Assembly: GCF_000023845.1 (NCBI RefSeq)
Contig: NC_013170.1
Location: 124,001 to 188,000 of the forward strand
Direction of reading: 5' to 3'
DNA length: 64,000 nt
Source of the DNA: Cryptobacterium curtum DSM 15641
GTDB taxonomy: Bacteria; Actinomycetota; Coriobacteriia; Coriobacteriales; Eggerthellaceae
The notes beneath the pieces were generated by a model, which was not told the DNA's origin, did not search any database, and saw only the letters and a program-made list of their open reading frames with translations. The position numbers and the translations under genes are program-made. Of this stretch, positions 19,116 to 38,537 are shown one piece after another (the stretch's first letter is position 1; each line of letters begins with the position of its first letter).

Positions 19116-20024
19116 ATGGTACTGGGGCTTGTTATTGCCTCTCTTGCTGGTGTTGGTATCGGCCTTCTTTCGGGTCTGCTTGGCATTGGGGGCGGTACGG
19201 TGATTGTGCCCCTGCTGCGTTTGGGCTTTGGTTTTGCCGCCATTGAAGCGACAGCAACATCACTATTTGCCATTATTCCCACCTCGGTCGCAGGAGTTGT
19301 GGGACACCTTCGTCATCGCACCTGTGTAGTAGGGGTGGGTGTGGCTGCTGGCTTAGCAGGGGCGCTTACTTCGCCGATAGGTGTGCAGCTTGCCGATAGA
19401 TCGCCTTCATGGGCTATTATGCTGGCTGCTGCCTTAGTTATTGGCTACTCTGCAGTAACGATGCTCAAAAAAGCGCTTGTGTCCTCGCACGTTACGTCTT
19501 CACATGCCGCGTCCCCGCATGTCCCGCACGCTATGCCTTCACAGGATGCATCTCCGCATGTCGCATCCTCACATGCTATATCCCCATATGTCGCGCAAGA
19601 GTCTATCAAGAAGTCCATCAATGCGCATCGGGTACACGCGACCTGCCACCAGATACTTGTAGGTGCGCTGTCAGGATTGATAGCTGGCCTTGCATCGGGA
19701 TATGTTGGTGTTGGCGGCGGCTTTATTATGGTGCCGCTTTTTGTTTCGTTTGCTGGTATTTCGATGAAACAGTCTTCTGGTACATCATTGATTGGTGTGG
19801 CGATTTTGGCTATTCCCGGGGTAATCAGTCAGATGACGCTGGGCAATGTACAGGTGCTGCCTGGTTTAGCGCTGGCTTTAGGTTCGGTGCCCGGTGCCTT
19901 GTGGGGGGCACGATTAGTGCAGGTGATTCCCGAACGTAGTTTGCGCTTACTGTTTGGCATGGTGCTCGTGCTGATGGCGTGCGCACTTGTCTTCAATGAA
20001 GTGTTTTCACTGATAGTTGGGTAG
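19116..20024 (+). CDS. TauE/SafE-family sulfite/anion exporter with His-rich loop
   Basis: 302 residues, about eight hydrophobic segments in two homologous halves, each starting with a GLLGIGGG / GYVGVGGGFI motif typical of the TauE/SafE (DUF81) family. These proteins are thought to export sulfite, sulfoacetate or related anions. GTG at 19113 is an alternative start. Between the halves (~residues 120-165) lies a hydrophilic insert made of short SSHA / SPHV repeats with about nine histidines, unlike the usual short loop; it could bind metal or simply be a repeat expansion. Confidence 0.82.
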   Translation: MVLGLVIASLAGVGIGLLSGLLGIGGGTVIVPLLRLGFGFAAIEATATSLFAIIPTSVAGVVGHLRHRTCVVGVGVAAGLAGALTSPIGVQLADRSPSWAIMLAAALVIGYSAVTMLKKALVSSHVTSSHAASPHVPHAMPSQDASPHVASSHAISPYVAQESIKKSINAHRVHATCHQILVGALSGLIAGLASGYVGVGGGFIMVPLFVSFAGISMKQSSGTSLIGVAILAIPGVISQMTLGNVQVLPGLALALGSVPGALWGARLVQVIPERSLRLLFGMVLVLMACALVFNEVFSLIVG

Positions 20025-35629: not shown

Positions 35630-36289
35630 TTGAGCAATATTATTGTGGTTGGTTGTGGGCGTGTTGGTTCACAGCTCGCAAACATGCTTTCCGAAAACGA
35701 TGACAATGTATGTGTTATCGACAAGAATCCTGATGCCTTTACAGGACTTGGCCGTGCCTTTAACGGATCGGTCATCCAAGGGGTTGGTTTCGACGAAGAG
35801 ACGCTCTCCCGAGCGGGTGCCAATGAAGCTGATTGCGTAGCGGCTGTTACCCAATCGGACAACGCGAATCTCATGACGGCCGAGGTAGCGAGTCGTTTGT
35901 TCCATGTCCCGCATGTTATTACCCGACTTTACAATCCTGGTCATGAGCATGCCTACGAACAGTTGGGTTTTGACTACGTGTGTGGTACGTCGCTGGTAAC
36001 CGAAGATATTTACGCGAAGATATCATCGGGTCATGGATTTCACATCGATACCTTTGGCGAGTTCGAAGTATTACGCTTCTCGCTCGATCTGGAAGGCAAC
36101 AACATGAAAAGCATTCGGGTATCTCAGCTTGAACGCCCTTATGAAGTGCGGATCATCGCATTTGAGCGTGCTGATGGGCGCTCGTGTTCGCTTCCGACGG
36201 GTGATTCGGTTTTAGGTCATGGTGATGCAGTGCTTGCGTGCGTTAAGCACTCGGCGCTGCAGGATTTCTCGCGCTGGATACAGGAATAG
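35630..36289 (+). CDS. TrkA/KtrA-like NAD-binding potassium transport regulator (first of two)
   Basis: 219 residues. RCK_N domain with the Rossmann motif VVGCGRVGSQLA (~6-17) and the acidic VIDKNPDAF strand end, then an RCK_C domain (~135-215). Such subunits gate Trk/Ktr potassium channels in response to NAD(H) or nucleotides. The start is a TTG at 35630: GAGGAAAGG lies 8-17 bases upstream and the next codons give SNIIVVGCG as in the family; an open frame to 35552 adds unrelated residues. No TrkH/KtrB membrane subunit is nearby. Confidence 0.85.
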   Translation: MSNIIVVGCGRVGSQLANMLSENDDNVCVIDKNPDAFTGLGRAFNGSVIQGVGFDEETLSRAGANEADCVAAVTQSDNANLMTAEVASRLFHVPHVITRLYNPGHEHAYEQLGFDYVCGTSLVTEDIYAKISSGHGFHIDTFGEFEVLRFSLDLEGNNMKSIRVSQLERPYEVRIIAFERADGRSCSLPTGDSVLGHGDAVLACVKHSALQDFSRWIQE

Positions 36290-36298
36290 GGGGCTCTC

Positions 36299-36976
36299 AT
36301 GCGCATCGTTATTAATGGCGGTGGCAAGGTAGGGGAGTACCTTGCAAGTGTTTTACTGGCCGATGGCAACGATGTTGTCGTTATTGAAGAAGACCGAGCT
36401 ACTGCCGATCGCCTCGCGAGCACGTTAACCGGCCGCTATATGGTTATTTGGGGTGATGGCTGTGTGTCCCGCTATCAGGAAGACGCAGGCATTCGCCAAG
36501 CAGATCTGTTCGTGTCGACCACGGGCAAGGACGATGCTAACCTTGTGTCATGCGAGATAGCTATGCGCGTGTTTAACGTACCGCGCTGTATTGCCCGCGT
36601 GAACAGCCCAAAGAACCTGCGCATCTTCCGCGAAGTGGGTATTGAATGCGTTTCATCGACAACACTTATTGCCACCATTATTGAAGAGGACGCGATGCTT
36701 GGTGGCATTAGCGTGCTGTCGAGTCTTTCGCACGGCAATGTGGCATTGGCCGAAGTAACTGTTCCACGTATGCGCCATCACGATCCGGTTGAAGGGGTGC
36801 TTGCTCACGATGTGCCTGTTCCCGATGGCTGTGTATTGGTGGCAGTCTCGCGTGGCGATGAAGGCGACATGGAAGTTATTGGTACAACAACACGATTGCA
36901 TCCAGGCGATATGGTAGTTTTAGCAACCGATGCCGAAATGAAAGCGGCTGCCTTGCAGACATTTCGTCAGCTATAA
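36299..36976 (+). CDS. TrkA/KtrA-like NAD-binding potassium transport regulator (second of two)
   Basis: 225 residues, RCK_N with INGGGKVGEYLA (~5-16) and VIEEDRA, then RCK_C (~140-220). It is a diverged paralogue of the gene 9 bases upstream, and the two could form a hetero-octameric gating ring, as in systems with two separate TrkA-like proteins. In this copy the glycine loop is GGGKVG instead of GCGRVG. The gene ends at the head of a precise triple 39-bp repeat. Confidence 0.86.
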   Translation: MRIVINGGGKVGEYLASVLLADGNDVVVIEEDRATADRLASTLTGRYMVIWGDGCVSRYQEDAGIRQADLFVSTTGKDDANLVSCEIAMRVFNVPRCIARVNSPKNLRIFREVGIECVSSTTLIATIIEEDAMLGGISVLSSLSHGNVALAEVTVPRMRHHDPVEGVLAHDVPVPDGCVLVAVSRGDEGDMEVIGTTTRLHPGDMVVLATDAEMKAAALQTFRQL

Positions 36977-37088
36977 AGTGGCCGTAGCCATTTCGTATAC
37001 GTAAGCCGTGTATAAACTGGCTGTAGCTGTTTTACATACGTGAGTTGTATATAAATTAGCTGCGTTCATTTCACATACGGAATTCGTG
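36972..37088. repeat. Three exact-length 39-bp tandem units at the trkA-like stop codon
   Basis: Units 36972-37010, 37011-37049 and 37050-37088, each starting TATAAA and keeping CATACG/GTATACG near position 24-30. The TAA stop codon of the upstream gene lies inside unit 1. Sequence identity between units is roughly two thirds by eye, but the length is identical. Read on the minus strand it would give a 13-residue repeat, which I do not think is translated. Confidence 0.75.
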
Positions 37089-37193
37089 CGCTTACAGCTG
37101 AAGCTGGTGGTATGAAGGCAGTTGTTATTGCTATCGCGGTACAATTTTATAAAACGTGGTGCGCCTGGTGAGCGCAGGAAGGAAGAGAGCTCA

Positions 37194-38537
37194 ATGATCC
37201 CTCGGTATACGCGCCCGCAGATGGGTGGTATTTGGCAGAACGAAAACAAGTTCTCTATCTGGAAAGAAATCGAACTCTTGGCATGCGAAGCACAGGCGGA
37301 GCTCGGTGCATCAGGCATCACAAAGGAAGAAGCCGCATGGATTCGCGCCCATGCTGACTTTACCGTTGAACGTATCGACGAAATTGAAGCAGTAACCAAT
37401 CATGACGTTATCGCTTTTCTCACCTGCCTTGCCGAACATATCGATGCCGATATTCCCGAAGGGCAAGAAAAGCCTTCACGCTGGGTTCACTATGGCATGA
37501 CATCTTCCGATTTGGGGGACACCGCGCTTTCATATCAGATTACACAGGCACTCGGTATCATTATTGAAGATGTGCGCGCTATAGGTGAGGTATGTCGTCG
37601 GCGTGCCTTTGAGTTTCAGGAGACACTGTGCGTGGGACGCACGCATGGTATTCATGCCGAGCCTATGACATTTGGTATGAAGTTTGGCAGTTGGGCCTGG
37701 GCTATGAAGCGTGCACTCGTCCGGCTTGAAGAAGCCCGTAAAGTGGCAGCATGTGGGGCTATATCCGGCGCAGTCGGCACCTATTCAAGCATCGACCCTT
37801 TTGTCGAGCAGTATGTGTGCGAACATCTGGGGCTTTCGCCTGATCCTCTTTCAACCCAAGTGCTTGCGCGCGACCGCCATGCGCAGGTTATGAGTACGCT
37901 TGCTGTTACGGCAGCAAGTTTTGAAAGTATTGCTATGCAGGTACGTCTGCTTCAGCAGTCCGATGTTATTGAGGCGGAAGAACCATTCAAAAAGGGGCAA
38001 AAGGGCTCTTCGGCTATGCCGCATAAACGTAACCCCATCACAGCTGAGCGTGTTTGCGGTCTCGCGCGTACCATCAAGGCTAATGCTCAGGTTGGATACG
38101 ATGATGTTGCCCTGTGGTACGAGCGCGATATTAGCCATTCGGGTGCTGAGCGCACGTCGTTGGCAGATAGCTTTATTGCTCTTGATTACATTGCTGAAAA
38201 ACTGCGGTGGATTCTTGATGGCTTACAGGTATATCCCGAGGCCATGAAGGCAAATCTCAACAAAACGCGCGGTCTTGTTTATTCAAGCAAGGTATTGCTT
38301 GCATTGGTTCAAACGGGCATTACGCGCGAAGAGGCGTATGCTATTGTGCAGCGCAACGCAATGGCAACGTGGCATGATGTGCAACAGGCGAAGGTAGGTC
38401 CGACGTATCGTGATCGCCTTGAGGCCGATCCAGAATGTACACTTGACGCTCGTGAGCTCGATAAAATATTTGATCCGTGGCAGTTCCTTACTCGCAAAAA
38501 CGTGGTATTCAACCGTTTGGAGCAGTTGTCGTTCTAA
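37194..38537 (+). CDS. purB: Adenylosuccinate lyase
   Basis: 447 residues. PurB removes fumarate from SAICAR and adenylosuccinate in purine synthesis. The superfamily signature SSAMPHKRNPITAE (~276-289) is intact, with MTSSDLGDTA (~99, substrate loop) and TRGLVYSSKVL near 361. GGAAGGAAG upstream fixes the ATG at 37194, giving the usual MIPRYTRP beginning; the frame is open 24 codons further upstream without support. Confidence 0.95.
   Translation: MIPRYTRPQMGGIWQNENKFSIWKEIELLACEAQAELGASGITKEEAAWIRAHADFTVERIDEIEAVTNHDVIAFLTCLAEHIDADIPEGQEKPSRWVHYGMTSSDLGDTALSYQITQALGIIIEDVRAIGEVCRRRAFEFQETLCVGRTHGIHAEPMTFGMKFGSWAWAMKRALVRLEEARKVAACGAISGAVGTYSSIDPFVEQYVCEHLGLSPDPLSTQVLARDRHAQVMSTLAVTAASFESIAMQVRLLQQSDVIEAEEPFKKGQKGSSAMPHKRNPITAERVCGLARTIKANAQVGYDDVALWYERDISHSGAERTSLADSFIALDYIAEKLRWILDGLQVYPEAMKANLNKTRGLVYSSKVLLALVQTGITREEAYAIVQRNAMATWHDVQQAKVGPTYRDRLEADPECTLDARELDKIFDPWQFLTRKNVVFNRLEQLSF

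Follow-up and report, generated by a model that had tools for sequence, protein, structure and literature searches.

According to PMC3733652, the REP/BIME elements of the GTAG superfamily are imperfect palindromes of 20–40 bp that lie just 3′ of coding regions and carry G-U pairs in their stems. That source gives REP stems a length of 5–13 bp and describes a head-to-tail arrangement as absent or under-represented in REPs. Here, we analyzed a short tandem array at the end of a TrkA gene of Cryptobacterium curtum DSM 15641, whose genome is one contig of 1,617,804 bases, and compared it with these elements, with intrinsic terminators and 3′ stabilizing stem-loops, and with slippage-type (VNTR-like) intergenic repeats. 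Positions are those of the window, by which we mean the whole stretch of 64,000 nucleotides that was analyzed; a 264-kb sample of the genome consisted of this 64-kb window and ten 20-kb stretches.

The array is preceded by two consecutive TrkA_N genes, as identified with Pfam. The second, trkA2, is an open reading frame on the + strand (36299–36976) with a TrkA_N match (PF02254, E = 8.1e-24) and a weak TrkA_C match. It ends in CTA TAA, and its stop codon (TAA, 36974–36976) sits within the TATAAA that opens the first repeat unit. The gene downstream is the co-directional purB, encoding adenylosuccinate lyase (37194–38537, + strand; PF00206 and PF10397), with its ATG at 37194. Because the TrkA2 of several relatives ends at the corresponding leucine and stop with no repeat behind it, the trkA2 stop is likely to be ancestral, with the repeat built onward from there.

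Three ungapped units of 39 bp, all read on the + strand, occupy positions 36972–37010 (unit 1), 37011–37049 (unit 2), and 37050–37088 (unit 3). Both the ungapped comparison and Tandem Repeats Finder (TRF) confirmed the preliminary description, which had reported three units of equal length after the second TrkA gene, each starting with TATAAA and the first containing the stop codon. Unit 2 is identical to unit 1 at 28/39 positions, and unit 3 matches unit 1 at 27/39 and unit 2 at 25/39, giving pairwise identities of 64–72% with no indels; 10 of the 11 differences between units 1 and 2 are transitions. The idea that the units might be no more alike than random 39-mers did not survive a shuffling test, in which none of 100,000 per-unit shuffles attained the identity observed for any of the three pairs. 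Flanking 39-mers taken in the same register on both sides match the units at only 8–12 of 39 positions. TRF delimited the array at 36972–37079 (period 39, 2.8 copies, 0% indels, score 97), and a lag of 39 at the array gave the top self-match of the 64-kb window (53/78 positions; lags of 10–300 tested). Among the ten TRF rows scoring at least 50 in the 264-kb sample, the array ranked third, behind a perfect duplication of 33 bp and a 39-bp repeat located within a gene.

The best reading of these data is that the array consists of copies of one 39-bp quasi-palindromic stretch that was tandemly duplicated at the trkA2 end and then drifted. We judge it to be old, and probably no longer variable, because its copies are only 64–72% alike. 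An exact 33-bp tandem duplication (100% match) in a non-coding gap of the same genome (L064:1624–1689, approximately 401,624–401,689) is its recent counterpart. Another period-39 tandem repeat was seen at 19480–19562 of the window (2.1 copies, TRF score 103), within a long ORF.

Duplication followed by drift was one of two explanations put forward in the preliminary description and is the part of its proposal that we retain; the other, selection on unit length through a spacing of 13 codons or helical turns, we rejected by argument. The approximately 3.7 turns that correspond to 39 bp are not a whole number, and successive sites therefore face different sides of the helix. An in-frame TAA is repeated in every unit and further stops occur in other frames; the + strand is thus not translated in units of 13 codons. 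Substitutions generally outnumber indels, and, judged by this excess, the complete lack of indels among the units is unremarkable because the pairs differ at only 11, 12, and 14 positions.

Dyad symmetry, which the preliminary description did not mention, is found in palindromes that span the unit boundaries. Hairpin A (36985–37023, + strand) starts about 9 nt past the trkA2 stop and is abutted by hairpin B (37024–37062, + strand); each is an imperfect inverted repeat whose 17-nt arms flank a 5-nt loop and pair at 15/17 positions when G-U is included, 12/17 being Watson-Crick. Unit 3 is left without the right half, and its dyad reaches 6/17 Watson-Crick pairs or 7/17 including G-U. When the columns of the three-unit array were shuffled so that the repeat itself was kept intact, 2 of 2,000 arrays were equally palindromic in any register. 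Across the 264-kb sample, the A/B geometry with 15 or more of 17 positions paired occurs at only 15 of 263,582 places, A and B included. The dyad symmetry of the array looks non-random. The fold z-scores on the + strand were −3.4 for hairpin A and −3.0 for hairpin B, with borders picked after the fold had been seen, and none of 300 dinucleotide shuffles of A and B together folded equally well on either strand. Folded alone, the 117-nt array has a minimum-energy structure without hairpin A, and a wider 241-nt stretch folds unremarkably (z = −0.72). Both strands of the array fold; the symmetry could thus equally act in DNA. We also noticed two 15-nt arms, one in the coding end of trkA2 (36935–36949) and the other in the left part of unit 3 (37058–37072), that are 87% complementary and enclose most of A and B, a pairing that may be due to chance.

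A comparison of the two hairpins revealed 12 differences in 41 columns, all of them transitions. Both bases of one pair had changed (C-G to U-A), five other standard pairs were kept or created by a one-sided change, and one pair was lost. Retaining 15 pairs has a probability of approximately 0.002 if all base changes are equally likely and of approximately 0.12, which is not significant, under transition-only change. We grade maintenance of the stems in A and B as suggested only, because transition-only change leaves 15 pairs in approximately 12% of cases.

Long dyads are found at the ends of other genes as well. Of the 15 places with the best dyads in the 264 kb, long ORFs account for nine and A and B for two. 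The other four are non-coding, and each follows the stop of a gene by no more than approximately 75 nt (in a small sample with mechanically called ORFs); two of them are located between co-directional genes, like A and B. Gene-end dyads thus recur in this genome, and it is possible that such palindromes represent a common type of gene-end hairpin in C. curtum. Long gene-end palindromes were noted at L064:7899, L069:17559, L069:18623, and L071:2791 of the same genome, mostly without a clear T-run.

We then searched for the array elsewhere. A DNA search of its own genome returned five matches, of which only the array itself was better than E = 0.6, and covariance model R1 matched the array alone. 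The core YATACGTRAGYYGTRTATA occurs twice without mismatch genome-wide, both times in the array; allowing up to three mismatches added two 3-mismatch matches to the two in the array, and the reversed control had five. Six matches in the genome were obtained with the 13-base pattern TATAAANTNGCNG, three of them in the array, compared with five for its reversed control, and the neighborhoods of the three matches outside the array contain no such hairpin. A dispersed repeat was ruled out by the DNA search, by model R1, and by core-pattern counts no better than the reversed control.

The array is equally restricted to this genome within the family. The covariance model matched 1 of 138 genomes, its own, and was negative in the 137 others. 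A DNA search of 60 relatives yielded, own genome aside, nothing better than E = 0.15, and TrkA2 or a paralogue is present in 54 of the 60 genomes. From 34 relative loci that were compared, we kept the 26 with purB downstream and dropped eight in which purB fell outside the locus; the loci are not all independent, as the gaps of L029 and L049 are identical and may come from one genome, and the genus is represented by a single genome. None of the 26 trkA2-purB gaps carries the array, and hence there is no conservation argument for a function. These gaps vary from 24 to 1414 bp (median 94) and in content too; TRF detected only one array in them, an unrelated 16-bp repeat in L020. The 60-relative search, the 138-genome model, and the 26 gaps together ruled out a conserved element. 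By eye, the gaps of L011, L012, and L020 (744–1096 bp) have a similar stretch in common, suggestive of an additional gene in the opposite orientation, and the L012 gap contains a long inverted repeat of approximately 150 bp that resembles a small mobile element. Phages, plasmids, and viral contigs gave no match to the array, and a purB scan of the viral contigs found no relative; a mobile or viral origin was rejected on these grounds. We found no published account of this array in the literature searched, which does not prove that none exists.

How, then, does the array compare with the described systems? It resembles the REP/BIME elements in having adjacent units with two 39-nt dyads directly after trkA2 and G-U pairs in the stems. 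REPs carry an unpaired GTAG (or CGTC) tag at one end; here, GTAG stands at the start of each hairpin (36984–36987 and 37023–37026), but its last bases pair in the predicted stem. Unlike in REPs, the units are head-to-tail, the stem is longer than the 5–13 bp given for REPs in PMC3733652, and the array is confined to one locus by DNA search, covariance model, and pattern, with no dispersed copies. The Y1/RAYT transposase (PF01797) was found in 0/1 of the own genome and in 5/14 of the control rings. Dispersion and this transposase are two defining features of REP/BIME elements, and as both are absent, we rejected membership.

Similarly, intrinsic terminators and 3′ stabilizing stem-loops share with the array the placement of stem-loops approximately 9 nt past a stop codon, between co-directional genes, whereas the stems of the array are AU-rich and interrupted rather than G+C-rich and lack a T-run. 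A terminator scan called no intrinsic terminator in the array, with no T-run directly after either hairpin, and because of this missing T-run, the array is not an ordinary intrinsic terminator. With a slippage-type (VNTR-like) intergenic repeat, the array has in common head-to-tail copies of constant length, a single locus, and absence in relatives; it differs in that the copies are just 64–72% alike and the unit is palindromic. A CRISPR array was rejected, the units being head-to-tail without spacers and only 64–72% alike; the C. curtum genome paper lists 0 CRISPR repeats (PMC3035227). A cmscan of positions 36000–38000 against Rfam 15 produced five matches, all under the gathering score, the only one overlapping the array being HOTAIR_3 (E = 4.3). 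We likewise rejected a described structured RNA, since no curated Rfam model reaches its gathering score.

The array is real and is probably an ordinary gene-end structure. Our preferred reading, which we hold tentatively and place a little short of an even chance, is that a gene-end quasi-palindrome was imperfectly triplicated and that the resulting tandem stem-loops act at the 3′ end of the trkA transcript, before purB. A 39-bp quasi-palindrome would have been triplicated at the trkA2 end, probably by replication slippage or recombination between short repeats, and would then have drifted. Because the palindrome spans the unit boundary, its triplication would yield two complete stem-loops in tandem and an unpaired half. 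The tandem stem-loops, carried at the 3′ terminus of the trkA1-trkA2 mRNA, could slow 3′ exonucleases and might loosely promote transcript ending or processing ahead of purB, for which a separate promoter downstream of the array is probable; we infer that the array is transcribed, that it acts at the RNA level, and that it affects the mRNA 3′ end. The main rival is nearly as likely and a serious contender in its own right, namely that the array is neutral debris: a quasi-palindrome prone to slippage would have been triplicated a single time in this lineage and would now be decaying, without any present function. Palindromes are known to be hotspots of slippage, and neutrality is in line with the single locus in the genome, the 137 other family genomes without the array, a trkA2-purB gap whose length and content vary freely in 26 relatives, and a unit 3 devoid of its pairing half. 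It fits less well with two complete dyads that are both still 15/17 paired after 28–36% divergence, although the low probability of such retention when all substitutions are equal vanishes under transition-only change.

The remaining alternatives concern DNA-level regulation and coding. A TACAAT at 37140–37145 (+ strand), inside a CGCGGTACAAT string that is common to the near relative L007, is a candidate −10 of the purB promoter proposed from sequence; it has no good −35, and the promoter scan calls no promoter there. Each dyad could bind a dimeric regulator of purB (or trkA) transcription, with operator centers near −148 and −109 and a third, degraded one near −70, counted from a purB start assumed at approximately 37152. 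Symmetry at the DNA level on both strands, the position of the array upstream of purB, and the occurrence of the exact YATACGTRAGYYGTRTATA core at two genomic places, both in the array, are compatible with such operators, which we nevertheless regard as distinctly unlikely: sites 39 bp apart are not in phase with the helix, the genome offers no other good site (two 3-mismatch matches versus five in the reversed control), the −10 and start of purB are themselves deduced, and the regions preceding purB in relatives do not conserve the arrangement. Least probable is a small RNA or an antisense peptide encoded in the array. A minus-strand frame (36971–37399, 142 aa) does span the three units without a stop and shows a 13-residue period, which is trivial because 39 is divisible by 3; the frame begins with TTG and overlaps purB in antisense, its best Pfam match (E = 0.17) is not above the cut-off, and it is probably due to chance. 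Against a small RNA stand the lack of any Rfam family at gathering score in 36000–38000 and of any promoter called in the array.

A bolder form of our preferred 3′-end reading would make the array a lineage-specific RNA element, in which tandem stem-loops born of triplication undergo pairing-preserving, transition-only change and regulate the end of the TrkA-pair transcript with respect to purB; this we consider unlikely. By itself, the array has little significance. It is a tidy, small-scale case in which a gene-end palindrome has multiplied in tandem at one locus, with neither a Y1 transposase nor dispersed relatives, and may show how REP-like gene-end hairpins begin, prior to their spread.
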